Assembly: GCF_003426945.1 (NCBI RefSeq)
Contig: NZ_QURO01000004.1
Coordinates: 1,240,001 to 1,304,000, forward strand
Length of the DNA: 64,000 nt
Source of the DNA: Thermus sediminis
Lineage (GTDB): Bacteria; Deinococcota; Deinococci; Deinococcales; Thermaceae
Direction: 5' to 3'
Below are positions 30,751-44,906 of the stretch, in pieces. Below the pieces are notes generated by a model that was not told the origin of the DNA, made no database searches, and was given only the letters and a program-made list of their open reading frames with translations. The stretch's first letter is position 1. Each line of letters opens with the position of its first letter. Made by a program: the position numbers and the translations under genes.

Positions 30751-32571
30751 TCAGGGGCGTTGGGCGTCGTGTTTGCCGCCCCATAGGGACCTCTCCCCTT
30801 CGGGAGTGAGGAGGAAGGTGTTGCGGTCGTCCCTGAGCTGGCGCTTGAGGATCCTGAGGACCTTGGCCCTGGCCTCCTTGTCTAAAACGGGAAAGAGGAG
30901 CTCAAAGCGGTTTTGGAAGTTCCGGGGCATGAGGTCGGCGCTGGTCAGGTACACCGCCCACTTCCCCCTATGGCGGAAAGCGGCCACCCGGGCGTGCTCT
31001 AGGAAGCGGCCCACCAGGCTTCGCACGTGGAAGCGAGGGTGGAGAAGGGTGAGGGTGCTCCGCACCAGGAGGTCCACCCGGGCCCCTTTCTCCGCGGCTT
31101 GGACCAGGGCCTCGAGGATCTCCGGATCTGTTAGATGGTTGCACTTCAGGATCACCCGGCCCTTGGGGTGGGCCTCGGCCATGATGGCCTCCACCAAGCC
31201 CCTCCGGATGGCCTTCCCCGTCTTCAGGAGGGAGAGCCTGGGCGTGCGCCCTTCCTGAAGGGCCCGGAAGAACTCGGCCAGGTCCCTCACCACCCCCTCC
31301 CTCCCAGTGAAGAGGGAGAAGTCCGTGTACGTGCGCCCACTGAGAGGGTTGTAGTTGCCGGTCCCCAGGTGGGCATACCCCCCTTCCTGGGTGAGGAGGA
31401 GGATGGCCTTGGCGTGGACCTTGCGCTCAGAAAGGGGCAGGACTGCCACCCCAGCCCGGACGAAGCGGAGGTACCAGGAGAGGTTCAAGAGTTCGTCAAA
31501 GCGGGCTCTCCCCTCCAGGAGCACGTGAACCCGCTTGCCCATCTGGGCCGCCTGGATCAAGGCCTCGGCCAGGGCGTTCTCCTCCCCGATGCGGTAGAGG
31601 GTGGCGTAGACCTCCTTGACCTCGGGGCGCAGGGCTTCCTTCGCCAAGCGCTCAATGGCCGCGTAGTCCTCAAAGGGGTGGTAAAGGAGGAGGTCCTTTG
31701 TCTCAAGGCGCTTGAGGGGGTTTTTCAGAAAGGCGCGGGGCCTTTCTGGGCGTAAAGGGGAAAAGCGCCACCCCGGGGGGCCTTCTGCTGCTAGATGGTC
31801 CACCAGACCCAGGTTTAGAGGGGGTTTCAGGAGGAAGGCTTCCTGGGGAAGGAGGCCCAAGGCCTCCCTCAGGGTCTTAAGCCAATCTGGGGGAAAGGAC
31901 TCCTCGGCCACCAGCAGGGTGGGCGTGCCCTCCTGGCGCGCTTCTAGGGCCTGGGCCAGCTCGTCCCAGTCCGCCCGGGTCCGCTCACTCTCCAGAAGCC
32001 TCAGGACCCGGAACTCGTACAGGGGGCTTGCCTCGGGGAGAAAGAGGTCGCTTCGTGTCCGCATGAGGGCTCCCAGACGCACGTACGTCCCCTTCTGCCC
32101 AGGCACCCTGAGGAGGCGGGGGAGGTCTTGGGGCAGGCGCACCAGGTGGCCTCGGGAGGCGAAGTAAAGGGCCCCGTGGCTCACGTCCGGGGCCGCCTCC
32201 CAGGGGATGATGTCCGTCTTGGGGGCCACCACCTCGGCCAAGAAGGCGCGGAAGTAAAGCCAGTCCAGTTCGTCCAGCTCCTCCGGCTCGAGGACCCGTA
32301 GGTGCTCCTTGGCCTCTTCCAAAAGGGCCCGGTAGCGCTCCTGGGCCAGGAGGGCTTGGGCGTAGGCCTCCTCCAGGAGCCTGAGGTGCTGGGGGCTGCC
32401 CCTGGCCTTCAGGAAGGGCTTGGCGATGCGGGCGGCGAAGAACTCGTCCAGGTTCCGGTTCCAGATGCTGAGGAAGCGCATCCTCTCCAGAAGGGGAAAG
32501 TCGGGCCGCTGGCTCTGCTGGAGGACGCGGCGGTTAAACTGAAGCCAGCTCTCTTCGGGGAGGGGGTGCAT
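30751..32571 (-). CDS. ppk: Polyphosphate kinase 1
   Basis: 606 residues; forms long-chain polyphosphate from ATP. N-terminal part WLQFNRRVLQQSQRPDFPLL is typical, and the phospholipase-D-like catalytic halves show KVHAKAILL (phosphorylated His), GTGNYNPLSGRTYTDFSLF and CNHLTDPEILEAL. It is shorter than the E. coli enzyme (about 690). Divergent from ppx with only 33 nt between start codons; a Pho-like box lies upstream and extends onto the ppx start. Confidence 0.94.
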   Translation of the reverse strand: MHPLPEESWLQFNRRVLQQSQRPDFPLLERMRFLSIWNRNLDEFFAARIAKPFLKARGSPQHLRLLEEAYAQALLAQERYRALLEEAKEHLRVLEPEELDELDWLYFRAFLAEVVAPKTDIIPWEAAPDVSHGALYFASRGHLVRLPQDLPRLLRVPGQKGTYVRLGALMRTRSDLFLPEASPLYEFRVLRLLESERTRADWDELAQALEARQEGTPTLLVAEESFPPDWLKTLREALGLLPQEAFLLKPPLNLGLVDHLAAEGPPGWRFSPLRPERPRAFLKNPLKRLETKDLLLYHPFEDYAAIERLAKEALRPEVKEVYATLYRIGEENALAEALIQAAQMGKRVHVLLEGRARFDELLNLSWYLRFVRAGVAVLPLSERKVHAKAILLLTQEGGYAHLGTGNYNPLSGRTYTDFSLFTGREGVVRDLAEFFRALQEGRTPRLSLLKTGKAIRRGLVEAIMAEAHPKGRVILKCNHLTDPEILEALVQAAEKGARVDLLVRSTLTLLHPRFHVRSLVGRFLEHARVAAFRHRGKWAVYLTSADLMPRNFQNRFELLFPVLDKEARAKVLRILKRQLRDDRNTFLLTPEGERSLWGGKHDAQRP

Positions 32572-32580
32572 CTGCTTCAG

Positions 32581-32612
32581 ATTACGCCGGAGAAGGGTCA
32601 GAGGATGGTCAA
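32581..32612 (-). promoter_or_regulatory. Pho-like box and promoter of ppk
   Basis: On the minus strand: TTGAC (32608-32612) and CTGAC (32597-32601), 11 bp apart; 9 bp after CTGACC comes CGTAAT (32581-32586) as -10. The ppk ATG follows 9 nt later. The box covers the ppx start codon at 32605. Confidence 0.6.
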
Positions 32613-34101
32613 GGCCCGCCGCTTGGCGGTCTTGGACCTGGGATCGGGCACCTTCCGGCTGGTCCTCTACGCCTACGAGCCCCAGCGCCTATACCGGCTT
32701 TTGGACGAGCTCCGTGAGCCCGTGGCCCTGGGGGAGGGTCTGTCCAGAGGGGTCATCGCTCCCGGGGCCCTGGAGCGGGGAGGGAAGGCCTTGAGGGCCT
32801 TCGCCAGCTTCCTCCAGGCCGTGGGGCCGGACGAGGTGGTGACCTTGGCGACCAGCGCCGTGCGGGATGCCGAAAACGGCCACCTGGTCTTCGAGGAGGC
32901 CCAGCGGACGGGCCTGGCCCCCCGCTTGCTCTCCGGAGAGGAGGAGGCCCGGCTCGGGGTCTTGGCGGTGGCCAACGCCCTTCCTCTCCACGAGGCCCTG
33001 GTGGTGGACCAGGGGGGTGGGAGCGCCCAGGTCTCCCTCATGCGGGAGCGGCGCTTCGTCTTCGGCAAGGCCCTGCCCCTAGGGGCCTTGCGCCTGACGG
33101 AGGGCTTCCTCCCCTCGGACCCCCCGGGCAAGGGGGAGGTCAAAGCCCTGGAGAAGGAGGTGGCCCGCCAGCTGAAGGCCCTCCCCCTGGAGCGGGGGCT
33201 TCCCCTGGTGGCCCTGGGGGGGAACCTCAGGGCCATCGCCCGCCTGCACCAGAGGCGCCGGAGCTACCCCCTGGACCTTCTCCACGGGTACTACCTGCCC
33301 AAGGAGGGGGTAGAGGCCCTGTACCAGGACCTCCTGGCCCTTCCCTGGAGGGCGCGGGCCGGCCTACCCGGGATCCAGCCCGACCGGGCCCGCACCCTGC
33401 CCGCCACCCTGGTCTTCCTCAGGGTGCTCCTGCGGGAGACCGGGGCCATGGGGCTTTGGGTGAGCGGGGTGGGCATCCGGGAGGGGGTCCTCTTCACCCG
33501 GCTCCTGCCCGAGCCCCACCTCCTCCAGGACCCAAGGGCCTTTGCCCTGGAGAACCTCTTCCTCCACTACCCCTTCGCCGAGGCGCACCGGGAGCAGGTG
33601 AAGGCCCTGGCCCAGGCCCTGTTCCAAGGCCTCGTCCCCCTTCACGGGTACGGGGAGGAGGAAGGGAGGCTCCTCCTCGAGGCGGCCCACCTGCACGACA
33701 TCGGCATGCACATCGGCTACCACGAGCACCACAAGCACGGGGCCTACCTGGTCCTCTCCGGGCCCCTCTTTGGCCTCACCCACCGGGAACAGGCCCTTCT
33801 GGCCCTCCTGGTGCGCTACCACCGCCGGGGGAACCCCGACCCTGGACCTTTCCGCAGCCTTCTGGGCCGGGGGGACGGGAAGCGCCTCAAGCGCCTCGCC
33901 GCCCTCCTGCGCCTTGCGGAGATGCTAGAGCGCACCCGCTCCGGCCGGGTGGAAGGGGTACGGGTGGAGCTAGGGGAGAGGGTGCGCCTCCTCCTCCAAG
34001 CCCCCGAGGACCCCTGGGTGGAGCGGCTGGAGGCGGAGAAGCAGGAGGGGCTGTTTCGGGAGGCCTTCGGGGTGGGCCTGGAGGTGGTCTGGGAGGGGTA
34101 G
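32605..34101 (+). CDS. ppx: Exopolyphosphatase / pppGpp phosphatase family protein with HD domain
   Basis: 498 residues. Residues 1-300 are the sugar-kinase-like Ppx/GppA fold: LAVLDLGSGTFRLVLY near 7-22, TSAVRDAENG near 85-94, SGEEEARLGV and VVDQGGGSAQVSL. The C-terminal third is helical with an HD-type site HLHDIGMHIGYHEHHKHGAY. It removes terminal phosphates from polyphosphate or pppGpp. ATG 32605 is chosen because earlier codons lie antisense within ppk. sixA starts one base after the stop. Confidence 0.88.
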   Translation: MVKARRLAVLDLGSGTFRLVLYAYEPQRLYRLLDELREPVALGEGLSRGVIAPGALERGGKALRAFASFLQAVGPDEVVTLATSAVRDAENGHLVFEEAQRTGLAPRLLSGEEEARLGVLAVANALPLHEALVVDQGGGSAQVSLMRERRFVFGKALPLGALRLTEGFLPSDPPGKGEVKALEKEVARQLKALPLERGLPLVALGGNLRAIARLHQRRRSYPLDLLHGYYLPKEGVEALYQDLLALPWRARAGLPGIQPDRARTLPATLVFLRVLLRETGAMGLWVSGVGIREGVLFTRLLPEPHLLQDPRAFALENLFLHYPFAEAHREQVKALAQALFQGLVPLHGYGEEEGRLLLEAAHLHDIGMHIGYHEHHKHGAYLVLSGPLFGLTHREQALLALLVRYHRRGNPDPGPFRSLLGRGDGKRLKRLAALLRLAEMLERTRSGRVEGVRVELGERVRLLLQAPEDPWVERLEAEKQEGLFREAFGVGLEVVWEG

Positions 34102-34102
34102 G

Positions 34103-34612
34103 ATGGAGGGCATGGAGCTCTTCTTGGTGCGCCACGCCATCGCCCTGCCCCTTCCCGAGGGGGCGGGGGAGGAGGAGGATGACGCCCGCCCCCTCACCCC
34201 CAAGGGGGTGCGGCGCTTTCGCAAGGTGGTGCGGGGCCTCGCGGCCCTGGGGGTGGGCCTGGACCTGATCCTGACGAGCCCCAAGCGCCGGGCCCTGGAG
34301 ACGGCGGAGCTCCTTTCCGACCTCCTTCAGGGGGAGACCCGGGTGAGCCCCCACCTGGCCGAGCCCCCCGGAGAGGAGCTCCTGGCGGAGATCCCCGCCG
34401 AGGGGCGGGTGGCCCTGGTGGGGCACGAGCCCTACCTCTCGGTCTTTCTGACCCAGCTCCTCTTTGGGGACCTCTTGGGGGGCTCGGTGCAGGATGCCCT
34501 GGAGGGGCGCTTCCTCCTCAAGAAGGGCGGGGTGGCCTGGCTGGAGGGGACACCACGCCCTGGGGGCATGACCCTAAGGGCCCTCTTCCCGCCCAAGGTC
34601 TTCCGCCTATGA
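34103..34612 (+). CDS. sixA: SixA-type phosphohistidine phosphatase
   Basis: 169 residues, histidine phosphatase superfamily. The catalytic motif is ELFLVRHAIALPLP, with TSPKRRALETAELL near 60 and VALVGHEPYLSVFL near 102-115. SixA removes phosphate from His-containing phosphotransfer domains; the partner here may instead be linked to polyphosphate because it sits between ppx and a CHAD gene. It overlaps the CHAD gene by 4 nt. Confidence 0.85.
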   Translation: MEGMELFLVRHAIALPLPEGAGEEEDDARPLTPKGVRRFRKVVRGLAALGVGLDLILTSPKRRALETAELLSDLLQGETRVSPHLAEPPGEELLAEIPAEGRVALVGHEPYLSVFLTQLLFGDLLGGSVQDALEGRFLLKKGGVAWLEGTPRPGGMTLRALFPPKVFRL

Positions 34613-35307
34613 GAGACGCCCGGGCTTGGGTGGAACACCTCGAGGCCCACCTGCCCCTGGCCCTGTCCGGGGAGGACCCCGAGGGGGTGCACCAGGTGCG
34701 GGTGGCGGGGAGGAGGCTTCGGGCGTACCTGGACCTCCTGGGCTGGCGGGTCCTCCAGGACGACCTCCGCCTCCTGGTGCGCAGAGCGGGTCGGGTGCGG
34801 GATTTGGAGGTGGCCTTGGGAGGGGAGCTCCCGACGGGTTTCCGGGTCCACCTCGAGGCCGAGCTAGGGGAGGCCAGGCGGACCCTCAGGCAGCTCCTCC
34901 TCTCCCCCTGGATGGGGGCGCTGCTTCGCGCCCTCCGCCACCTTCCCCCGCTAGGCAAGGGGGCGCGGAGGGGGCTTGCTCGCCTGGAGAGCCGTCTGGA
35001 GGCCCGCTGGGGGCGCCTGAGGGCGGAGCCTACCCTGGACAACCTGCACGCCTACCGCCGTGCCCTCAGGCGGGTCCGCTACGCCAAGGAGTTTTTGGGG
35101 CTTTCGACCAAGCGGGAGAGGGCGCTTCAGGAGGTTCTGGGCAGCCTCAACGACCTCGGGGTCATGGAAGGGCTTCTCCTCGCCTACCTCCACGCCCACC
35201 CGGACCCCGAAGCCGCCCCATTTTTGGAGGAGACCAAACGGGCCCTTCGGGAAGCCTTTGTCGCCGCCTTGGAGGAGCTTGGCCTCCCCGTGCCCCTGGG
35301 GGTCTAG
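34609..35307 (+). CDS. CHAD domain protein
   Basis: 232 residues. The histidine- and arginine-rich helical CHAD fold is shown by PEGVHQVRVAGRRLRAYL near 22-40 and DNLHAYRRALRRVRYAKEFL near 144-163. CHAD proteins bind polyphosphate through basic surfaces and locate to polyphosphate granules. Its position after ppk, ppx and sixA fits that role. 35308-35483, downstream, holds no gene that I can support. Confidence 0.88.
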   Translation: MRDARAWVEHLEAHLPLALSGEDPEGVHQVRVAGRRLRAYLDLLGWRVLQDDLRLLVRRAGRVRDLEVALGGELPTGFRVHLEAELGEARRTLRQLLLSPWMGALLRALRHLPPLGKGARRGLARLESRLEARWGRLRAEPTLDNLHAYRRALRRVRYAKEFLGLSTKRERALQEVLGSLNDLGVMEGLLLAYLHAHPDPEAAPFLEETKRALREAFVAALEELGLPVPLGV

Positions 35308-35483
35308 GGGGACACTCTGGGGGATTTGTCGCTGGGAGAGGTGGATCTCGGTAGGCCGCGCCCAAGGAGCTCAAGGCCTCCCTGAACCGGGCCCCGTGCC
35401 GCTTGGGCTCCCCGTCTTCGGCGGGGGCGGTCTGGTCCCCTTCAGGGCGCCGGTGGAGGAGGCCGAAAGTGCCCTACTAGGCC

Positions 35484-36920
35484 TCACTGCCAAGAGTAGA
35501 GGGGCCTGAGCCGCGAGGTCTTTTTGTGCTGGTGGGCCTGCATCCTGGTCAGGAACTGGTCCAAAAGGGCCACCGCCTCGGCCACGTAGGGTCCCTTGTT
35601 GACCATGACGCATTCCGCCCGAGCCGCCAATGCGGCATCGGAAAGCTCGGCCCGCGAGGGCGTCCCTTCCTTGACCAGGTTCTCCAGCACCTGGGTGGCC
35701 CAGATCAACGGGGCATGGGCGGCCTCGCAGATCCAGAGGAGTTCCTCTTGGATCTCGCCGAGGCGGAGCCAGCCCAGCTCCGCCGCCAGGTCCCCTCGGG
35801 CGATCATCACGCCCACCGGACGCCGGTCCACGGCCGCGGCGATGAGGGCGGGCAGGTTTCTCACCGCGAGGCGGGTTTCCACCTTGAGGACCACGCCCAG
35901 GCCCGGGGGAGCCCCTATCCGGTCCAGCTCGTCCAGAAGCAGGCGCACCTCTTCCGGCCTTTGCACGAAGGAGTAACCCACCAGCTGGGCGTTCTGGGCG
36001 ACAAACTTCAGGTCCTCGATGTCCCTTTCGGTGAGGGGGGGTATGTGGAGGTCCGTATCGGGGAAGTTCAGGCCCTTTTCCTCGCGAAGCCTCTTCCCGC
36101 TGGGCTTGACGGTTTCCACCTCCACCAGGACCCCTGAGGCCTCCACCTGGACCACCCGAGCCGCGATCTTGGCGTCGTCGATCCAGACCCTCGACCCCTC
36201 GCGAAGATGGGCTAGGACCTCGGGAGGGACAACCTCCACTTGGAAAGGAACCCTGGGGTCAGGCCTAGGGGGACCGGGGGTGAGGCGGATCCGGTCCCCC
36301 GCGAAGACCTTCTTCCGGCTAGGAGGGGTAAGGACCGCGCCCGTCCGTATTTTCGGCCCCGCCAGGTCCATCTGAACGGGGCAGGCCCGGCCCATGCCTG
36401 CTTCCGCTTGGCGAAGGTGGAGGAGCATGCGCTCCCAGACCGGGCGTTGGTCATGGGCGAGGTTGATCCTGGCCAGATCCATCCCCTGCGCAAGCAGGCG
36501 GCTCAGGAAGCCCGGGTCCGTGGCGGCCTCCGTGGGCAGGGTCACCATAATCCGAACCTGGCGGTGGGACGGCGCCTTGCCGAAAAGGGTTTGGCCGTTC
36601 TGGCTCAAGGCGATGTCCCCAGCGAAGAACTCCTCTTTGGTGGGAGCGGGAAACCCGAGGCCCAGGGTGGCCCCCAAGGTGGCGATCACGGCATCCAGAT
36701 TGGGCAGCACCCGGGACTCGCACCGCCCCAGGGAGGAGAGCCCCCGCCAGGCCAGTTCTACCTGTAGCTCCCGGAGGTCGTGCCGGCGCAGGGCCAGGTA
36801 GTGGGCCAGGTTGTTGAGCTTGGGCCCAGGATATCCCCAGGCCCTCAGGTACTCCTCGGATTCCCGCAGGACCTCTTCCCGAAGGCTAAGGAGCCGCTGG
36901 AGGAGGACTTGGTCCTCCAC
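35484..36920 (-). CDS. Pyruvate kinase-like protein with N-terminal extension and no C-terminal PK domain
   Basis: 478 residues from GTG 36920. Residues 1-130 are an extension (LNNLAHYLALRRHDLRELQ, LSSLGRCESRVLPNLDAVIA). The pyruvate kinase barrel follows: PVQMDLAGPKIRTGAV, LNFPDTDLHIPPLTERDIED, VVLKVETRLAV, VMIARGDLAAELG and WATQVLENLVKEGTPSRAE. The first loop is altered (VTLP where TIGP is usual; RINLAHD where RINFSHG is usual) and the allosteric C-terminal domain is absent. Catalysis is therefore uncertain. A Pho-like box and TATGAT lie upstream; the start is leaderless by spacing. Confidence 0.8.
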   Translation of the reverse strand: MEDQVLLQRLLSLREEVLRESEEYLRAWGYPGPKLNNLAHYLALRRHDLRELQVELAWRGLSSLGRCESRVLPNLDAVIATLGATLGLGFPAPTKEEFFAGDIALSQNGQTLFGKAPSHRQVRIMVTLPTEAATDPGFLSRLLAQGMDLARINLAHDQRPVWERMLLHLRQAEAGMGRACPVQMDLAGPKIRTGAVLTPPSRKKVFAGDRIRLTPGPPRPDPRVPFQVEVVPPEVLAHLREGSRVWIDDAKIAARVVQVEASGVLVEVETVKPSGKRLREEKGLNFPDTDLHIPPLTERDIEDLKFVAQNAQLVGYSFVQRPEEVRLLLDELDRIGAPPGLGVVLKVETRLAVRNLPALIAAAVDRRPVGVMIARGDLAAELGWLRLGEIQEELLWICEAAHAPLIWATQVLENLVKEGTPSRAELSDAALAARAECVMVNKGPYVAEAVALLDQFLTRMQAHQHKKTSRLRPLYSWQ

Positions 36921-36926
36921 GCGTTC

Positions 36927-36958
36927 ATCATAGCCCGGTTCTGTCAGGCCAGGGTCAA
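36927..36958 (-). promoter_or_regulatory. Pho-like box and promoter of the pyruvate kinase-like gene
   Basis: Minus strand: TTGAC (36954-36958) and CTGAC (36943-36947), 11 bp apart; 9 bp after CTGACA comes TATGAT (36927-36932), and 6 nt later the GTG start. The best -10 of the set. Confidence 0.7.
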
Positions 36959-36990
36959 GAGGTGCCAGGGGGCGATGCCCTTGGGGTACG

Positions 36991-37022
36991 TTGACGGGGG
37001 CTTGACGAAGGCAGGCTAGGTT
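36991..37022 (+). promoter_or_regulatory. Pho-like box and promoter of ymdB
   Basis: TTGAC at 36991-36995 and 37002-37006, 11 bp apart; 9 bp after TTGACG comes TAGGTT (37017-37022). Transcription would start at about 37029-37030, at the ATG of a short leader reading frame. Confidence 0.65.
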
Positions 37023-37029
37023 TGGGGGG

Positions 37030-37101
37030 ATGGGACCTTTCCCTTCGGGCCCCCTTCTGCCCCAACCTCTCCCCTCACCGGGGGGATCTACCAGGAGGTA
37101 G
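37030..37101 (+). CDS. Possible 23-residue leader peptide before ymdB
   Basis: ATG 37030 lies 7 nt after the -10 hexamer TAGGTT, the leaderless distance, and encodes MGPFPSGPLLPQPLPS, then PGGSTRR, then TAG at 37099-37101. Its last codons contain the AGGAGG site of ymdB and its stop ends one base before the ymdB GTG. Translation of the leader could couple to, or gate, ymdB. No homology is known to me; it may be chance. Confidence 0.35.
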   Translation: MGPFPSGPLLPQPLPSPGGSTRR

Positions 37102-37102
37102 G

Positions 37103-37912
37103 GTGAGGATCCTCTTCTTTGGCGACCTGGTGGGGGAGGCGGCCATCCGTTACCTGGAGGGAAACCTGCCCCGGCTCCGACGGAAGCTGGGAGTGGACTT
37201 TGTGGTGGCCAACGGGGAGAACGCCGACCTCACCGACCCCGCCTTGGGCAAGGCGGGGATGCACCCGGAGACCGTGGACCGCCTCCTCGCCTGCGGGGTG
37301 GACGCCATCACCGGTGGGAACCACTCCTTTGACCCCCCTTGGGCGGAGGAGCTCCTGGACCACCCCCGGGTCCTCCGCCCCCTGAACGCAGGGCCTTTCG
37401 CTCCCGGGCGGGGGTACTTGGTTCTGGAGGGCCAGGAGAGGGCCCTCATCGTGGTCAACCTGGTGGGCCGGAGCGCCTGGCCCCCCGCCGACGACCCCCT
37501 GTGGGCCCTGGAGGGGCTCCTCCCGGGCCTGGAGGCGGGGATGCCCGTGTTGGTGGACTTCCACTCGGAGAGCGTTTTTGAGAAGCTGGGCCTGGCCTTC
37601 GCCCTGGATGGCCGGGTGGCCGCGGTCCTAGGCACCCACACCCACGTGCCCACCCAGGACCTCCGCATCCTTCCCCGGGGCACGGCCTACGTGTCCGACG
37701 TGGGCATGGTGGGGCCCTCTGGGGGGATGCAGGGGTACGAGCCAGGGTTCCTGGTAGCGGTCCTAAGGCGAAAGCGGCCCCCTCGAGGGGGGAGGCTCGC
37801 CTGGGCCCAGGGGCCTTTGGAGGTGGGCGCGGTGGTGGTGGATCTGGACGGGGGGAGGGCCAAGGCCATCCATCGCCTCCAAGCCCTCCAGGGGGTGCCC
37901 CAAGGGGGTTAG
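37103..37912 (+). CDS. ymdB: YmdB-family metallophosphoesterase
   Basis: 269 residues. Dinuclear metal motifs: ILFFGDLVGEAAIRYL at the start, VVANGENADLTDPALG near 34-49, GGNHSFDPP near 72, LVDFHSESVFEKLGLAFALD and GTHTHVPTQD near 176-185. Family members hydrolyse 2',3'-cyclic nucleotides or other phosphodiesters. GTG 37103 is chosen after AGGAGG with 4-nt spacing. It diverges from the pyruvate kinase-like gene; both have the same promoter element. A 75-residue gene follows 3 nt later. Confidence 0.88.
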   Translation: MRILFFGDLVGEAAIRYLEGNLPRLRRKLGVDFVVANGENADLTDPALGKAGMHPETVDRLLACGVDAITGGNHSFDPPWAEELLDHPRVLRPLNAGPFAPGRGYLVLEGQERALIVVNLVGRSAWPPADDPLWALEGLLPGLEAGMPVLVDFHSESVFEKLGLAFALDGRVAAVLGTHTHVPTQDLRILPRGTAYVSDVGMVGPSGGMQGYEPGFLVAVLRRKRPPRGGRLAWAQGPLEVGAVVVDLDGGRAKAIHRLQALQGVPQGG

Positions 37913-37915
37913 GGA

Positions 37916-38143
37916 ATGGGGGATAAGGTTGAGTTCCTCGTGGAAGACTTGGAAGCCCGCCTGTCTCCCGAGGCCTTGAAGGGCTTGGCGGCGGACCTAA
38001 AGGCGGTCTTCGCCCACCACTTGCAGGCGGAACGGATCCTCCTCCTGACGGGGCGGGATGCCCGGGGCCGCCTTTGGCTTCGGGTGGTGGCGGTCTTGAA
38101 GGGAACCCGCCCCCCGGGAGAGGGCGGGCCAGGTCCCGGATAA
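37916..38143 (+). CDS. Small hypothetical protein
   Basis: 75 residues, starts 3 nt after ymdB. MGDKVEFLVEDLEARLSPEA suggests an acidic helix followed by a short beta-rich part (ILLLTGRDARGRLWLRVVAV). No family recognised. Its stop lies just before the convergent phytase-like gene end. Operon position suggests coexpression with ymdB. Confidence 0.6.
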   Translation: MGDKVEFLVEDLEARLSPEALKGLAADLKAVFAHHLQAERILLLTGRDARGRLWLRVVAVLKGTRPPGEGGPGPG

Positions 38144-38145
38144 CC

Positions 38146-39393
38146 TTAGCGGAGCCTTTCCGGTAGCTCCACCAGCCAAAGCTTGGTGGGTTTTTCCTCG
38201 CCCACGGCGAAGTCGTTGTCCGAGATGAGGGCCAGGGTCTTGCCGTCCTCCAGGAGGGCCAGCCCCTCCAGCTTGTCGGTGTCAAACTCCTTGAACTTCC
38301 AGGTCTCCAGGAGAAGCCGCCGCGTGGGCAGGCGGATGCCTAGCCCCGCGTAGTCCGTTCCCGCCTTGTCCAGCTCGGGGCTTTCCCCGTCGGGGCGCTC
38401 CAGGAGGTTGGTGGCCTCCTTGAAGTCCACCAGGTAGATGCGGGCCCCGCCCTCGGCCCGTTCCAGGAGGAGAAGGGTTTCCTCCTTGACCCAGAAGGCT
38501 GCCGAATACTTCATGTCCCTGGGCCGGTTGGCCTTGGGATAGTCCTTGGGGTCGGAGAAGGGGACCAGGTACATCCCCGTGGTCCGCACGTTCAAGGGGT
38601 CGGAGACATCCAGCCGCACCGCCCGCGCCACCAGGCTCCCGTCAAAGGCGGGGTCTCTGGTACTTCCGATGGGGCTTTGCAGGATGGCCCAGGCCGTTTT
38701 CCCGTCGGAGGAAAGGGCCAGGTTTTCCAGGCCCCGGTTGTTGCGCCTCTGGGCCAGGATGCCGGGGAGGGTGTCCTTGACCGGGTAGTCCGCCTCCAAA
38801 CGCACCCCCTTGGGCACGAAGCGGGCTCGTACCACCCCCTCGAGGTCCACGTACACCAGGGAAGGGGCGTACTCCTCCACCAGGAGGTACCCCTTGTTCC
38901 CCGGCAGGACCACCACGTCCTCAGGGTCTAGGCCATTGGGGTCGTAGGCCAGGCGGGCGGTGCAGGAGGTGTCCAGGAAGGGGAGGTCGTCCTGGGGTCG
39001 ATTGGGCAGGCCCGTCACCGGCCTGCCCTTGGGGGTGTAGAGGGGGAGGCTCCGCTCCACCCAGGCTTCCCGGCCCTCGAGGCGGAGGAAGACCAGGCTC
39101 GGGGTGAAGCGGGGAACAGGGAAGACCTTGCCGCTTCCCCGGGCGCAGTCCAGGTTGGGGCCCCGGTCGGTGAGGCCCAGGAAGCGGTTCTCCCCTAGGG
39201 GATAGAGGCCGGACCCTGGGGCGGGCAGGTCCAGCCGGGCGAGGCCCGCCGCCTGGGCCAAGGCCACCTCCTGGGGCAGGAGGTAGGGGTTCAGGGCCTG
39301 GAGAGGGGTGGGCGCCAGGCCGTAGACTCCCACCACCTTCTGGGCCAAGGCTGCGCCCAAGAGAAGGCTTGCTAGGGTCAGGGTCTTTTTCAT
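38146..39393 (-). CDS. Secreted esterase-like activity of phytase family protein
   Basis: 415 residues. A signal peptide (MKKTLTLASLLLGAALAQ) directs it out of the cytoplasm. The rest is a beta-propeller-like chain with LGLTDRGPNLDC, KGYLLVEEYAPSLVYVDLEG and EGLALLEDGKTLALISDND, the pattern of the phytase-like domain (PF13449 type). It may hydrolyse organic phosphate esters outside the cell, which fits the Pho-like box upstream. ATG 39393 has AGAGGTG upstream; two codons earlier is another Met. Confidence 0.78.
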   Translation of the reverse strand: MKKTLTLASLLLGAALAQKVVGVYGLAPTPLQALNPYLLPQEVALAQAAGLARLDLPAPGSGLYPLGENRFLGLTDRGPNLDCARGSGKVFPVPRFTPSLVFLRLEGREAWVERSLPLYTPKGRPVTGLPNRPQDDLPFLDTSCTARLAYDPNGLDPEDVVVLPGNKGYLLVEEYAPSLVYVDLEGVVRARFVPKGVRLEADYPVKDTLPGILAQRRNNRGLENLALSSDGKTAWAILQSPIGSTRDPAFDGSLVARAVRLDVSDPLNVRTTGMYLVPFSDPKDYPKANRPRDMKYSAAFWVKEETLLLLERAEGGARIYLVDFKEATNLLERPDGESPELDKAGTDYAGLGIRLPTRRLLLETWKFKEFDTDKLEGLALLEDGKTLALISDNDFAVGEEKPTKLWLVELPERLR

Positions 39394-39430
39394 GGGCACC
39401 TCTAGAAGAGGGGCTCTTGCCCCCGGGGGA

Positions 39431-39462
39431 AGCCTAGAGGGTAAACGTCAGAGGCCGGTCAT
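39431..39462 (-). promoter_or_regulatory. Pho-like box and promoter of the phytase-like gene
   Basis: Minus strand: ATGAC (39458-39462) and CTGAC (39447-39451), 11 bp apart; 9 bp after CTGACG comes TAGGCT (39431-39436). The start codon is 37 nt further on, with a ribosome binding site, so this target is led. Confidence 0.6.
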
Positions 39463-39535
39463 ACCACCCCGGCAGAAAGTGCTCGGTGGGCCTCTAGCTG
39501 ACCGAAGGAAACAAGAAGAAAGGGTATCAAAGGGA

Positions 39536-39562
39536 AGGGCCCTGGGGAGGCCCCAGGGCCCT
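39536..39562 (-). terminator. Strong hairpin terminator after ugpB
   Basis: AGGGCCCTGGGG pairs over 12 bp with CCCCAGGGCCCT, loop of 3. On the minus strand it lies 13 nt after the ugpB stop and is followed by TTCCCTTTGATACCCTTTCTT. Confidence 0.8.
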
Positions 39563-39575
39563 GCGGCCATGGGGC

Positions 39576-40874
39576 CTACCGCCCCACGCTGGCGTTGTAC
39601 CGAGCTAGGGCCTGGTCCGCCCTAGCCTTGGCCGCGGCCAGGGCCTCCCTAGCGGGCCTGCCCCGCAGGACCTCTTCCCAGGCGGCTTCCACGTACTGGC
39701 GGATCTCCGGGAAGCTCCCCATGAGGCACCCAGCGGAGGCGTTGTTGACCTTGGAGGTGGCCAGCTGCTGAATGGCGGTGGTGAGGTTGGGGTTCCTCAC
39801 CCGGGCTTGCCGGACCTCAGGGAGCTCGTCCACCCCCTTGACCACGGGGAAGTAGCCCGTGGCAACGTGCCACTTGCCCTGGGTCTTGGGCTCCAGGAGG
39901 AAGCGCACGAAAGCCCAGGCGGCCTCGGTCTCCTCTGCGGGGAAGCCCCTGAGCACGTAAAGGGCGGCCCCGCCGATGGCCACGCCATTCCGCTCCCTGA
40001 GGTAGGGGAAGAAGGCGGTGCGCACGGGGAAGCGGCCCCCCACCTGGCGCAGGACCCCGGCGAGGCTCGCTGTGGAATAGGTGGCGATGGCTGCCTGGCC
40101 CTGGGAGAAGAGGTTCTGGGAGTCACTCCAGTTCCGGCCGGTATTGACAGCCACCCCTTCCCGGACCAACCGGGCGTAGGTGTCCAGGAGGGCGACCGCG
40201 GCCTCGTTGTCAAAGCTCACCGCCGTGGCCCGGGCCCTGCGGCCGTTTTCGTTGTTGCAGAAGTGGAAGCCGGAGTTGTAGGAGAACTGCTCCACAAACC
40301 AGGAGCTAATTGGGATGGAAAGGCCGTAGCGCACCGTCCTGCCGGAGGCATCCCTTTTGGTGAGCTTGCGGGCGGCCTCCTCCAGGTCGTTGAGGCTCCA
40401 GGTGGGCTTGAAGTCCAGGCCCGCCTCCTGGAAGGCGGCCATGTTGAAGTAGAGGAGGGGGTTGGAGGAGTTGAAGGCCAGGCCGTAGAGCTTGCCGTCC
40501 ACGGTGTAGTAGCTCCGGGTCTGGGGGACGAAGTTATCCAGGTTGAAGCCCCTCTGCCGGGCCAGGTCCTCTAGGGGAATCACGGCGCCCGAGTCCGCCA
40601 TGATCCGGGCCCCGATGTCGTAGACCTGGATCACGTGGGGGTAGCCCCGGCCCGCCCTTAAGGCGGCCAGGAGCCTATTGATGCCGTCGTCGTAGCTCCC
40701 CACGTACTGGCTTCTGACCTCGTACCGGTTCTGGCTGGCGTTAAAGTCCCTGACCAGGGCCTCCGTGGCCTCCCCCAGCACCCCGCCCATGGAGTGCCAG
40801 AAGGTGATCTGGACCCTTTGGGCCAGTGCCGCCCCTAGGGCCAACACCGCTAGACCTACTGCGAGCTTCCGCAT
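39576..40874 (-). CDS. ugpB: Sugar-phosphate ABC transporter substrate-binding protein, UgpB-like
   Basis: 432 residues with a signal peptide (MRKLAVGLAVLALGAALAQ). ITFWHSMGGVLGEATEALV and GLAFNSSNPLLYFNMAAF match UgpB, which binds glycerol 3-phosphate or glycerophosphodiesters outside the membrane. It is the third gene of a ugpA-ugpE-ugpB unit; no ATPase gene (ugpC) is present, so a shared ATPase encoded elsewhere is likely. Confidence 0.85.
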   Translation of the reverse strand: MRKLAVGLAVLALGAALAQRVQITFWHSMGGVLGEATEALVRDFNASQNRYEVRSQYVGSYDDGINRLLAALRAGRGYPHVIQVYDIGARIMADSGAVIPLEDLARQRGFNLDNFVPQTRSYYTVDGKLYGLAFNSSNPLLYFNMAAFQEAGLDFKPTWSLNDLEEAARKLTKRDASGRTVRYGLSIPISSWFVEQFSYNSGFHFCNNENGRRARATAVSFDNEAAVALLDTYARLVREGVAVNTGRNWSDSQNLFSQGQAAIATYSTASLAGVLRQVGGRFPVRTAFFPYLRERNGVAIGGAALYVLRGFPAEETEAAWAFVRFLLEPKTQGKWHVATGYFPVVKGVDELPEVRQARVRNPNLTTAIQQLATSKVNNASAGCLMGSFPEIRQYVEAAWEEVLRGRPAREALAAAKARADQALARYNASVGR

Positions 40875-40883
40875 ACCGACCTC

Positions 40884-41696
40884 CTATCCCTTCAGCCCGC
40901 CCAGGGCGATCCCCTTGACGAAGGCCCTTTGGGCGAGCAGGAAGGCCAAAAGGGTGGGCAGGAGCACCAGGAAGCTGGCCGCGGCCACCACGTTCCAGCG
41001 GGCCACGGCATCGGCCTCGTTCAGGATGAAGTTGATGGCGATCTGGGCCGTTTGCATCTCCCTGGACTGGGTGACCACCAGGGGCCAGAGGTACATGTTC
41101 CAGGCCCCGATGAAGGTGAGGGCTGCCAGGGCCCCCAGGGCGGGGGCGGAAAGGGGCAGGGCCACGTGGCGGATGAGGCCCAGGTGGCCTGCCCCATCTA
41201 TCCGGGCGGCGTCAAAGTAGTCCTCGGGGATGGTCTTGATGTACTGGCGGAGGAGGAAGACCCCTAGGGGGCTTGCGGCGAAGGGGAGGATGAGGGCCTG
41301 GTAGGTGTCCAGCCAGTCCAGGCGGTTGATGAGGAGGTATAGGGGAAGGAAGGTCACCTCCCCGGGCACCAGGAGGAGGGCCACTACCAGGCCGAAAAAG
41401 ACCTTCTGGCTCCGAAAGGGGATGCGGGCCAGGCCGTAGCCCGCGAGGAGGCTGGTGAGGAGGACCCCGAGGGTGGCCAGGGAGGCCACCAGGAGGCTAT
41501 TGAGGAGGTACCGCCAGAGGGGGTAGTCCGTGAGGGCGGCCCGGTAGCCCTCGAGGCTCACCTTGGGGGGCAGGAGGCCCGGGGTGAAGAGGTCCTCGGG
41601 AGCGCGGAGGCTGGCGGAGAGGAGGACCAGAAGGGGCAGGACGAGGAGGAAGGCGTAAAAGGAGGCCAGGAGGTAGGTGGGCCAAAGCCTACGCAT
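40884..41696 (-). CDS. ugpE: ABC transporter permease, UgpE-like
   Basis: 270 residues with six helices. The cytoplasmic EAA loop, which contacts the ATPase, is DAARIDGAGHLGLIRHVALP near 180-200. ATG 41696 (MRRLWPTYLLASFYAFLL) is chosen; an upstream GTG-type start only adds residues antisense to nothing conserved. It overlaps the ugpA end by 8 nt. Confidence 0.87.
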   Translation of the reverse strand: MRRLWPTYLLASFYAFLLVLPLLVLLSASLRAPEDLFTPGLLPPKVSLEGYRAALTDYPLWRYLLNSLLVASLATLGVLLTSLLAGYGLARIPFRSQKVFFGLVVALLLVPGEVTFLPLYLLINRLDWLDTYQALILPFAASPLGVFLLRQYIKTIPEDYFDAARIDGAGHLGLIRHVALPLSAPALGALAALTFIGAWNMYLWPLVVTQSREMQTAQIAINFILNEADAVARWNVVAAASFLVLLPTLLAFLLAQRAFVKGIALGGLKG

Positions 41697-42612
41697 AGTG
41701 CACCCTCCTCCCAAGGAGCCGGAACTGCAAGGCGGCCAGGACCACCAGGAGGAGGAAGAGGAGAAGCCCTTGTGCGGCGGCGTAGGCGAAGCGGAAGTTG
41801 AAGAAGGCCTCCTGGTAGACCCGGTAGATCCAAACCATGGTGCTCTCTATGGGCCCGCCGCGGGTGAGCAGGTGGATCTGGCCGAAGGCGGTGAGGCTTT
41901 TCAGGAGGACCAGGAGGCCCACCAGGAAGAGGGTGGGGGAAAGGAGGGGGAGGACCACCCTCCAGAAGCGGGTCCAGGGGCTGGCCCCGTCCACGCTAGC
42001 TGCCTCCAGGACCTCCTCGGGGATGTTCTGGAGCCCCGCGGTGAGGAGGATGGCCGTGAACCCCACCCCCGCCCAGGCGGTGACCACGGCCAAGGTGGGG
42101 AGGGCCAGGTCCGGGTTGGTGAGCCAAGGCTGGGGGGAAAGGCCTAGGGTCCTCAGGACGTGGTTTAGGTAGCCTCCCACGGGGTGGAGGAACCAGCCCC
42201 AGGCCACTGCGGCCACGGCGGTGGGCACGGCGGTGGTGAGGAAGAAGAGGGTGCGGAAGAGGGCCACCCCAGGGTAGGGGCGCCACACCAGGAGGGCGGC
42301 GAGGAGGCCCAGGAGGAGCTCCAAGGGTACCACCAGGGCGGCGAAGAGGAGGGTGGTCTTTGCGCTTCTCCAAAAGGCCGGGTCTTGGAGCACCTGGCGG
42401 TAGTTGTCAAGCCCGCTATAGCGCAGGTCCCGACCGAAGAGGTCCTCTTGGTGGAGGGAGAGCCAGATCGCCTGGCCCAGGGGAACCACGTAGAAGAGGA
42501 AGAAGAGGCCAAAGGCGGGGAGGAGGAGGCCCAAGGCCCAGGCTTCCTCCTTGCGCCTTCGGGCCCGGGCCTGCGCCTGCGTGGATGCGGATGCCCTAAT
42601 CACAAGGGCCAT
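41689..42612 (-). CDS. ugpA: ABC transporter permease, UgpA-like
   Basis: Up to 307 residues, six helices, with the EAA loop EAASVDGASPWTRFWRVVLP near 210-230. The first ATG at 42612 lies within the proposed -10 hexamer GAGTAT (42611-42616); transcription from there would start near 42604, so the true start is probably the GTG at 42603 (VIRASASTQAQ) in a leaderless mRNA. Divergent from the TIM-barrel gene across a double Pho-like box. Confidence 0.87.
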   Translation of the reverse strand: MALVIRASASTQAQARARRRKEEAWALGLLLPAFGLFFLFYVVPLGQAIWLSLHQEDLFGRDLRYSGLDNYRQVLQDPAFWRSAKTTLLFAALVVPLELLLGLLAALLVWRPYPGVALFRTLFFLTTAVPTAVAAVAWGWFLHPVGGYLNHVLRTLGLSPQPWLTNPDLALPTLAVVTAWAGVGFTAILLTAGLQNIPEEVLEAASVDGASPWTRFWRVVLPLLSPTLFLVGLLVLLKSLTAFGQIHLLTRGGPIESTMVWIYRVYQEAFFNFRFAYAAAQGLLLFLLLVVLAALQFRLLGRRVHYA

Positions 42613-42642
42613 ACTCCCAGAGGTTTGTCAGAAGGGCGTCAT
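42611..42642 (-). promoter_or_regulatory. Pho-like box and promoter of ugpA
   Basis: Minus strand: ATGAC (42638-42642) and CTGAC (42627-42631), 11 bp apart; 9 bp after CTGACA comes GAGTAT (42611-42616). Seven nt later is GTG 42603. Confidence 0.6.
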
Positions 42643-42649
42643 CCCCGCC

Positions 42650-42681
42650 CTGACCCTCTTCTGACGGCGGGGGGCTAGTCT
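42650..42681 (+). promoter_or_regulatory. Pho-like box and promoter of the TIM-barrel gene
   Basis: CTGAC at 42650-42654 and 42661-42665, 11 bp apart; 9 bp after CTGACG comes TAGTCT (42676-42681); 6 nt later the ATG. With the ugpA box it forms a back-to-back pair, so GTCAGAAG (42627) and CTTCTGAC (42658) also make an inverted repeat. Confidence 0.65.
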
Positions 42682-42687
42682 TGGGCC

Positions 42688-43425
42688 ATGGATGTCCGCC
42701 TAAGCCTCCACGTGCGGAACCTCAAGGCCAAGGCCCCCCTCCTGGAGGCCCTGGGCCTTGGGGCCGAGGCCTACCTGGACCCGGAGCTCCTGGAGGACGA
42801 CGAGCTTTTCGGGAAAATGCCCGCCCTTTCCTTCCCCCTTTCCGTCCACCTTCCCTTCTGGAACTTGGACCTCCTCTCCCCGGACCCCGAGGTGGCGGGC
42901 CTCACCTTAAGGCGCCTCCTCTTGGGCCTGGAGCGGGCGGTGGAGCTGGGGGCGGACCGGGCGGTCCTCCACTCCGGCATCCCCGCGGGCCGCACCCCGG
43001 AGGAGGCCTTGGAAAGGGCCCCCATCCTGGCTGAGGCCCTGCGGCCGGTGGTGCGCCGGGCCCGGGCCCTGGGGGTGGCCCTCTTCCTAGAGAACACCCA
43101 TGAGCCCGATCCCGCCTCCCTCAGGGTGGTCCTCGAGGCCCTGCCGGAACTGGGCTTCTGCTTTGACCCCAGCCACGCCCAGGTCTTCAGCCGCACCCCG
43201 GCTCCCGAACCCTGGCTGGCCCTGGCCCCGGACCACCTCCACCTCAATGACCACGACGGGACCTACGACCGCCACTGGAACCTGGGCCGGGGCGTGGGCC
43301 GCCCCGAGGCCTGGTTAGGAGGCTGCCTGGAGGCCACCCTGGTCCTCGAGGTCCGGGGGGACCCCACCCCCTCCCTGCGCTGGCTGGAGGGGTTTTTTGA
43401 CCGAGCCTTGACGGAAGCCCCATAG
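42688..43425 (+). CDS. Sugar phosphate isomerase/epimerase-like TIM-barrel protein
   Basis: 245 residues, AP-endonuclease-2/xylose-isomerase-like fold. Probable metal ligands lie in LFLENTHEPDPASL near 132-145, FCFDPSHAQVF near 156-166 and HLNDHDGTYDRHW near 180-192. Substrate unknown; the divergent promoter shared with ugp and the Pho-like box suggest a phosphoester or glycerophosphate derivative. ATG 42688 is 6 nt from the -10, so leaderless. surE follows after 9 nt. Confidence 0.75.
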   Translation: MDVRLSLHVRNLKAKAPLLEALGLGAEAYLDPELLEDDELFGKMPALSFPLSVHLPFWNLDLLSPDPEVAGLTLRRLLLGLERAVELGADRAVLHSGIPAGRTPEEALERAPILAEALRPVVRRARALGVALFLENTHEPDPASLRVVLEALPELGFCFDPSHAQVFSRTPAPEPWLALAPDHLHLNDHDGTYDRHWNLGRGVGRPEAWLGGCLEATLVLEVRGDPTPSLRWLEGFFDRALTEAP

Positions 43426-43428
43426 GGT
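43397..43428 (+). promoter_or_regulatory. Pho-like box and promoter of surE
   Basis: TTGAC at 43397-43401 and 43408-43412, 11 bp apart; 9 bp after TTGACG comes TAGGGT (43423-43428); 6 nt later the ATG of surE. The box lies inside the end of the TIM-barrel coding sequence. Confidence 0.6.
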
Positions 43429-43434
43429 GGGGCC

Positions 43435-44169
43435 ATGGGACGAAGAATCCTGGTCAGCAACGACGACGGCATCTATAGCCCCGGGCTTTGGGCCTTGGCG
43501 GAGGCGGCGAGCCTGTTTGGCGAGGTGGCGGTGAGCGCCCCCGATGCGGAGCAGAGCGGGGCCGGGCACGCCATCTCCATCGCCCACCCCCTAAGGGCCT
43601 ACCCCCACCCTGCTCCCTTCCCCGCCTACCGGGTCCGGGGGACCCCAGCGGACTGCGTGGCCCTGGGCCTCCACCTCCTGGGGCCGGTGGACCTGGTCCT
43701 CTCCGGGGTGAACCTGGGGAGCAACCTGGGCCACGAGATCTGGCACTCCGGCACCGTGGCCGCGGCCAAGCAGGGCTTCCTCCTGGGGGCCTCCGCCGCT
43801 GCCTTTAGCGTGCGCATGAACGGGGAGGAGCCGGACTTCCACGCCCTAAAACCTTGGATTGAGGACGTTCTAGAGGTCCTCCTCAGCCTCGAGGGGCCCT
43901 TCCTGGTGAACGTCAACCTGCCCCTCAGGCCCAAGGGGATGCTCTGGACCCGGCAGTCCGTGCGCCGCTACGAGGGCCTGGTGGTCCCCGAGGCCGACCC
44001 CATGGGCCGGCCCGTCTACTGGTTCGCCGCCAAGCCCCTCACCGAGGCCGAGGAGGGCACGGACCGCTGGGCGGTGGAGCAGGGCTTCGTGAGCCTCACC
44101 CCCTTGCGCCTGGACCTCACGGACGAGGGGAAGCTTTCTCCCAGGTACCGCGATGTGGCCCACCCTTAG
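43435..44169 (+). CDS. surE: 5'/3'-nucleotidase SurE
   Basis: 244 residues. The metal site [17 protein letters not shown] starts the protein, and [17 protein letters not shown] near 34-50 and [20 protein letters not shown] near 90-110 complete the family signature. SurE removes phosphate from nucleoside monophosphates and short polyphosphates. The ATG is 6 nt from its own -10, so it can be transcribed apart from the preceding gene. Overlaps the next gene by 17 nt. Confidence 0.94.
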
Positions 44170-44869
44170 CGTGGTTCTGCCCACCCGGAACCGGCCCCAC
44201 CTCCTCCGGCAGGCCCTCCTGAGCCTTCTCCGCCAGACCTATCGCAGATTTGAAGCCGTGGTGGCCGAAGACGGGGAAGGGGAGGGCCTTGGGGTGGTGG
44301 AGGCCCTCAAAGAGCCCCACATCAAGGGGGTATGGTCCGGGAAAAGGGGGCAGGTGGGGGCTAGGCTCCGGGCCCTGGAGGTGGCCCAAGGAGATGCTGT
44401 CCTCTTCCTGGACGACGACGACCTCCTCCTGGACCCCGCCTACCTCTACCGGGTGGCCCGGGCCCTGAAGGGGGGCGAGGGGGTGGCCTACTCCGGGGGC
44501 CTCCTCCTGACCCCAAGCGAGGCGATCCCCTACGAGCCCGGCCCCCCGGGGCCCTGGCTCCTCAAGGACAACCGCATCCTGGCCTCGGGGACCGCCCTGC
44601 CCCGCAAGGCCCTCCAGGACCTGGGGGGGCTTGACCCCCAGATGGGCCACTACTGGGACTGGGACCTCTGGCTCCGCGCCTTTAGGGCCGGGCTTCCCTT
44701 CCACTACCTCCCCGGGCCCAACGTGGGGGTGAGGGTCCACGGGGAGAACCAGAGCTACGGGGCCAACCTGGAGTCCAGGCGGCGGGACCTCTCCTCCCTC
44801 ATGGCCAAACACCGCCTGGAGGGCATCACCCTCAAGGACCACCTCCAACTGGCCCTGACAGCCTCCTGA
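44153..44869 (+). CDS. Family 2 glycosyltransferase
   Basis: 238 residues, GT-A fold. [20 protein letters not shown] begins the protein; the nucleotide-sugar/metal site is [13 protein letters not shown] near 83-95. [20 protein letters not shown] near 164-183 is typical. Acceptor and sugar unknown. It overlaps surE by 17 nt and its 3' end contains the Pho-like box of the phosphatase gene. Confidence 0.85.
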
Positions 44870-44886
44870 CAAGGGCGTGTTTGCAT
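44855..44886 (+). promoter_or_regulatory. Pho-like box and promoter of the alkaline phosphatase gene
   Basis: CTGAC at 44855-44859 and 44866-44870, 11 bp apart; 9 bp after CTGACA comes TTGCAT (44881-44886). Start codon 20 nt later, with GGAGGTGA before it. Confidence 0.65.
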
Positions 44887-44906
44887 GGTCTCCGGAGGTG
44901 AATCGT

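Follow-up and report, generated by a model that had tools for sequence, protein, structure and literature searches.

The window analysed here comprises 64 kb of the 2.16-Mb genome of Thermus sediminis (RefSeq assembly GCF_003426945.1; contig NZ_QURO01000004.1, here C4, positions 1240001-1304000) and carries genes for polyphosphate kinase 1 (ppk), a pyruvate-kinase-like protein (pyk-like), a ymdB-like metallophosphoesterase, a phytase-like esterase, a glycerol-3-phosphate-type ABC transporter (ugp), a TIM-barrel protein, the nucleotidase SurE and an alkaline phosphatase (phoA). Upstream of each lies a pair of TGAC half-sites 11 bp apart, followed by a -10-like hexamer, and it is the sequence, spacing, conservation and target set of this element, a candidate operator of the phosphate regulator PhoB (Pho box), that we describe. 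An earlier, sequence-only reading had drawn attention to these eight promoters, and all eight sites were recovered with the half-sites it quoted; the interval it gave, 32581-44886, is right for the window, although the element continues just outside, before pstS, and genome-wide. As that reading had supposed, no prior description of the box was found in the open-access literature.

The pattern TGAC-N7-TGAC occurs eight times in the window, where 0.77 is expected (standard deviation 0.94; none of 100 dinucleotide shuffles reached eight), and each other gap from 0 to 30 is found at most once. Extrapolated to the whole genome, the shuffle figure amounts to about 26 matches, no fewer than the 24 observed, and was not used as background. 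Shuffles overstate it, since the reversed-pattern control gives a single match and other spacings average 2.1, and the reversed pattern and the spacing spectrum were therefore taken as controls. By this measure (pattern searches together with stretches of genome sequence underlie the genome-wide statistics), TGAC-Nk-CTGAC occurs 18 times at the 11-bp pitch against a mean of 2.1 for 21 other spacings (Poisson P ~2e-11), and eight boxes have TAnnnT 10 bp downstream, as opposed to none for the reversed control. The direct repeats of PhoB-type operators have an 11-bp pitch, and it is this pitch alone that is enriched.

Across 177 non-redundant sites the consensus C(C/T)TGAC(C/A)nTnCC(C)TGAC(A) amounts to a repeated 11-bp unit, which is followed by the -10 TAnnnT. 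Since part of this set had been selected for a 10-bp interval between box and -10 (N10), spacing was counted in sets free of that selection: pstS promoters have N10 in 16 of 19 cases and a -10 of the form nAnnnT (e.g. CAGAGT), phoB promoters mostly N11 and TAGACT, ppk promoters N12 and TAATCT, and arsC promoters N10. The mode is 10 bp and the range 9-12 (departures of -1 to +2 by promoter, with N9 in a few), contrary to the claim of a spacing without exception, an impression that came from keeping the offset fixed and admitting weak hexamers there. At ppk, the -10 originally proposed (CGTAAT, N10) is off by 2 bp, as orthologues keep TAATCT at N12, 7 nt before the ATG, and GTAATCT is kept in nearly all orthologous ppk promoters. 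Several of these also show a third, imperfect half-site (TGGC) 11 bp past the second and abutting the -10, which may be linked to the longer spacing or to a different mode of control.

The repeats thus replace the -35 about 10 bp before the -10, as in PhoB-type operators. Were they ordinary sigma-A -35 elements with a coincidental second TGAC, the resemblance of yTGACn to TTGACA would be accounted for; the distance from the end of a half-site hexamer to the -10, however, is about 9 or 20 bp and not 17 bp, both half-sites recur jointly across orthologues, and the 11-bp pitch is unique. We rejected the sigma-A explanation on spacing and consider it exceedingly unlikely.

The -10 assignments are anchored independently of the box by the distance to the start codon, which lies 6-7 nt past the -10 at 12 of 12 surE and 10 of 10 TIM-barrel loci, and 6-7, sometimes up to 10, nt past it at phoB, many ugpA, PhnS-like and arsC loci. 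With start codons 6-7 nt past the -10, the transcript would begin at or next to the start codon. This agrees with the leaderless genes of Deinococcus-Thermus that have TANNNT some 12 bp ahead of the start codon and account for approximately 40% of all genes (PMC3160421). Within the window (Table 1), the GTG at 42603 is the likely true start of ugpA and the ATG at 44907 that of phoA. For ymdB a leaderless transcript was rejected, as the ATG 7 nt past its -10 is not in the reading frame of the gene; the true start is probably near 37103, which would give a leadered mRNA.

Table 1. Probable Pho boxes, -10 hexamers and target genes of the window (window coordinates).
Feature	Position	Strand	Remarks
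Pho box of ppk	32597..32611	-	TGACCATCCTCTGAC; pattern match
-10 TAATCT of ppk	32579..32584	-	12 bp past box, 7 nt before ATG at 32571
ppk, polyphosphate kinase 1	30751..32571	-	TIGR03705 E 6e-114; Pfam PP_kinase domains
Pho box of pyruvate-kinase-like gene	36943..36957	-	pattern match; exact in 5/5 orthologues
-10 TATGAT of pyruvate-kinase-like gene	36927..36932	-	6 nt before GTG start at 36920
Pyruvate-kinase-like gene	35484..36920	-	Pfam PK E 8e-43
Pho box of ymdB-like metallophosphoesterase gene	36992..37006	+	divergent from pyk-like box
-10 TAGGTT of ymdB	37017..37022	+	read from sequence
ymdB / TIGR00282 metallophosphoesterase open reading frame	37022..37912	+	YmdB E 8e-65
Pho box of phytase-like gene	39447..39461	-	strict box also before phytase-like orthologues in other Thermus
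-10 TAGGCT of phytase-like gene	39431..39436	-	read from sequence
Phytase-like esterase gene	38146..39399	-	PF13449 E 1.5e-32
Pho box of ugpA (ugp operon)	42627..42641	-	back to back with 42651 box
-10 GAGTAT of ugpA	42611..42616	-	7 nt before GTG at 42603
ugpA, second permease, ugpB (glycerol-3-phosphate-type ABC transporter)	39576..42612	-	best NCBIfam UgpA, UgpB, below cut-off
Pho box of TIM-barrel gene (sugar phosphate isomerase/epimerase-like)	42651..42665	+	pattern match
-10 TAGTCT of TIM-barrel gene	42676..42681	+	6 nt before ATG at 42688; leaderless
TIM-barrel gene	42688..43425	+	PF01261 E 2e-21
Pho box of surE	43398..43412	+	within 3' end of TIM-barrel gene
-10 TAGGGT of surE	43423..43428	+	6 nt before ATG at 43435; leaderless
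surE, 5'/3'-nucleotidase	43435..44169	+	TIGR00087 above cut-off
Pho box of phoA	44856..44870	+	overlaps 3' end of preceding open reading frame
-10 TTGCAT of phoA	44881..44886	+	Shine-Dalgarno leader, ATG at 44907
phoA, alkaline phosphatase, open frame	44877..46412	+	PF00245 E 2e-63

Just outside the window, pstS is preceded by two boxes 26 bp apart (C4:1306404 and 1306430). Other box genes outside the window encode an OmpR-type response regulator, a 5'-nucleotidase, a further UgpB-like binding protein and an ABC permease, and on an 83-kb contig boxes stand before divergently transcribed PhnS-like and UgpB-like binding-protein genes; an oligopeptide-type binding protein and an aldo-keto reductase are less clear targets. 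About five matches are intragenic, and one more (C4:206276) lacks a clear target. A one-mismatch scan of the genome added the arsenate reductase gene arsC and returned C4:1702414, which resembles a different promoter and was discarded. At 42611-42681 of the window, two back-to-back boxes with 9 bp between them face opposite ways, one towards ugpA and the other towards the TIM-barrel gene, and two binding-protein genes on contig C3 have a comparable divergent pair (27481 and 27525).

Among the six OmpR-type regulator genes of the genome, one has the box upstream, namely phoB, which heads a phoB-phoR-phoU operon. PhoB (TIGR02154) is the best NCBIfam match of its product, the best of 46 families, and the genes downstream encode a PhoR-like kinase and a PhoU scoring above its own cut-off. 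A phoB gene accompanied by phoR and bearing its own box is what one would look for with a PhoB-type operator.

In Thermus at large, the strict pattern (box plus TAnnnT at N10) was found at 107 sites in 26 of 27 genomes, and its reversed control at none. The downstream gene was read for 94 strict sites in other Thermus genomes, and 70 of these precede relatives of a reference set composed of the box genes of T. sediminis and genes adjacent to them, that is, surE (12 loci), TIM-barrel (10, with the box placed as in the window), ugpA (11), phoA (about ten), PhnS-like, ABC permease, phytase-like and UgpB-like genes. Most of the remaining sites stand before arsC (12), an unnamed small family (5), a PhnC-type ATPase, a MIP channel and one more surE. 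The unnamed family, behind a strict box in five Thermus genomes, has 63-73 residues (MDLETRLEMLLELDPEALDPGLAERLMDEVLAVFRKHLP...) and is without an NCBIfam match; the MIP-family (aquaporin-like) channel, at C106:1627597, lies near surE and TIM-barrel genes in one species.

Counts that start from orthologues and not from the pattern avoid choosing sites for the answer. By such counts, the box precedes 25 of 25 pstS genes (18 of 18 Thermus with a match, and 7 of 7 genomes of a second genus with upstream DNA), phoB in 30 of 30 genomes of the family and, in exact form, 5 of 5 pyk-like genes; of 16 ppk loci holding the gene start, 12 have the exact box and three a one-mismatch form, and one, in a fragmented assembly, has none. 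To these the 26 of 26 arsC promoters discussed below may be added. The box thus stands before pstS and other phosphate genes, where a PhoB-type operator belongs. In the wider order, an exact box lies close upstream in 14 of 20 phoB loci, and ten of the loci have a box ahead of a pstS or binding-protein gene that follows the phoB cluster. The negative control consisted of 80 PhoB-like genes of other phyla, obtained from a genome scan with a PhoB alignment that yielded distant phyla only; in none of them does the box occur within 200 bp upstream. The sequence-only reading had named as fatal to its proposal the absence of the box from pstS and from orthologous promoters, or an equal frequency before unrelated genes; the orthologue counts, the 70 of 94 sites and the empty reversed control in 27 genomes speak for the proposal on both points. 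It had further required transcript starts about 7 nt past the named -10 hexamers; here the start codons 6-7 nt past the -10 of surE, TIM-barrel, many ugpA, arsC and phoB genes mark where transcription would be expected to start.

One might attribute this recurrence to chance or to the shared ancestry of related upstream regions, considering that orthologous promoters are related and that the counts include near relatives. However, in the phoB, pstS and arsC sets TGAC...TGAC is fixed while spacer and flanks vary, and the same element stands before unrelated genes, with the strict sites facing an empty control, which leaves such an artefact hardly any probability. Within 24 kb, plasmid pVV8 of T. 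thermophilus HB8 (NC_017767) has six matches, and five immediately precede genes of the phnC-like, binding-protein, TIM-barrel, ugpA and surE kinds. Next to its C-P lyase genes, this plasmid carries genes for a ymdB-type phosphoesterase, the TIM-barrel protein, ugp, surE, a glycosyltransferase and a phytase-like protein together with boxes, that is, much of the chromosomal cluster of the window; this recurrence is suggestive of transfer of the block between plasmid and chromosome.

Taken together, the element is very probably the PhoB operator of Thermus and its relatives. Of the name "Thermus Pho box" given by the sequence-only reading, the Pho box part is supported, with binding by PhoB deduced, and "Thermus" is too narrow, as the box extends to the wider order. 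Several observations weigh against our conclusion: about 7 of the 24 genome matches are intragenic or precede genes without a clear phosphate link; the query found no pstS in 8 or 9 Thermus genomes, which are outside the pstS count; the N12 spacing of ppk fits the activation geometry less well; and the regulator scores 199 bits against TIGR02154, short of the 296.2 cut-off for a PhoB equivalog. Because of this score, PhoB orthology rests on the phoR/phoU operon; in our judgement the cut-off is a proteobacteria-centred naming threshold and does not define the operator. That score, together with the deduced nature of PhoB binding and the presence of arsC, pyruvate-kinase-like and ymdB genes, which are not textbook Pho genes, would also suit the operator of another regulator, for instance a second OmpR-type or a stress regulator, that controls phosphate genes incidentally. 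Yet tandem repetition every 11 bp, this far from the -10, is the geometry of PhoB-type operators, the box precedes phoB throughout the family and at most wider-order loci as well as pstS, and the other five OmpR-type genes of the genome lack it; we therefore regard control by another regulator as improbable.

Phosphorylated regulators of the PhoB type occupy 11-nt direct repeats as a head-to-tail tandem and recruit polymerase via sigma (PMC4415409 and general knowledge). By analogy with this family, binding of PhoB to the Thermus element, the phosphate signal and activation would fit together as follows. The two half-sites (yCTGAC or similar), 11 bp apart, lie on one helix face at the place of the -35, about 10 bp upstream of TAnnnT. 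Phosphate starvation would lead to phosphorylated PhoB, supplied by the phoB-phoR-phoU operon, itself boxed, which would occupy the half-sites head to tail and bring RNA polymerase to the -10. The genes switched on would serve phosphate uptake (pstS), uptake and hydrolysis of organic phosphates and phosphonates, polyphosphate and arsenate reduction, and at many of them the transcript would begin at the start codon.

The element shares with the Escherichia coli PhoB box two direct repeats at an 11-bp pitch in place of the -35, and with E. coli PhoB the kinds of target (pst, ugp, phoA, phn, phoB-phoR). The distance from box to -10 in E. coli is also similar. In contrast to the conserved 7-mer CTGTCAT of the two 11-nt direct repeats in E. 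coli (PMC4415409), the Thermus half-site is yCTGAC, and the element is therefore not classed as E. coli type; indeed, Pho half-sites vary between species (PMC4415409). Further differences are the -10 reduced to TAnnnT, the many leaderless targets, the PhoB helix DQHxxQLR and a gene set that includes arsC, surE, phytase-like, TIM-barrel and pyk-like genes. The PhoP box of Streptomyces coelicolor consists of GTTCACC direct repeats (PMC4415409). It is likewise a direct repeat in a high-GC genome, with a half-site readable as TTnAC, which yTGAC fits, but has C where the Thermus box has G at the variable position, and belongs to a different phylum with different targets. The PhoP box of Bacillus subtilis has TTAACA-type repeats, often more than two; it is similar in its TTnAC-type half-site and direct repetition, and differs in sequence, AT content and this frequent excess of repeats.

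Furthermore, PhoB proteins of this order have a recognition helix of sequence RTVDQHxxQLR, or nearly so, and both glutamines occur in all 49 sequences. Of 52 regulators of other phyla, drawn from the same 80-gene scan, 36 have V at the first glutamine position and 32 have R at the second, and at least one distant regulator combines both glutamines. Judged from sequence, the helix difference is in keeping with the different half-site and may be its cause.

The box upstream of arsC is present in all 26 Thermus genomes encoding arsC (21 exact, five with one mismatch, among them the present genome, C4:1080857-1080887), at the same leaderless position throughout. The best NCBIfam matches of the product are thioredoxin-type arsenate reductases, below cut-off, and it probably corresponds to TtArsC, the characterised enzyme of T. 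thermophilus HB27. Phosphate transporters are the entry route of arsenate (PMC5658604; this study maps transcript starts of other genes, and that of arsC is absent from it), so a cell with arsC controlled by this switch would be armed as uptake rises. PMC8949286 describes TtArsC as having phosphatase activity too, a possible second reason for its place in the regulon. As a gene of the phosphate switch, arsC would be both unexpected and new.

For Thermus, a workhorse among thermophiles, the consensus yCTGAC-N5-yCTGAC-N9/10-TAnnnT has sufficient precision for the regulon to be compiled from sequence, and the box allows roles to be proposed for unnamed targets and gene starts to be corrected. The paired difference in half-site and helix offers a clean case for the evolution of PhoB specificity, and the constant tie of arsC to the phosphate switch connects arsenic resistance in hot springs with phosphate starvation in a way that can be tested directly. 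We lean, if only slightly, towards a scenario in which box and PhoB helix co-diverged at the base of the order, giving rise to a PhoB subfamily that has a DNA code to itself, DQHxxQLR reading yCTGAC, and in which arsC became fixed in the Thermus regulon, where it would pre-arm cells against arsenate each time starvation increases the transporters that admit it.

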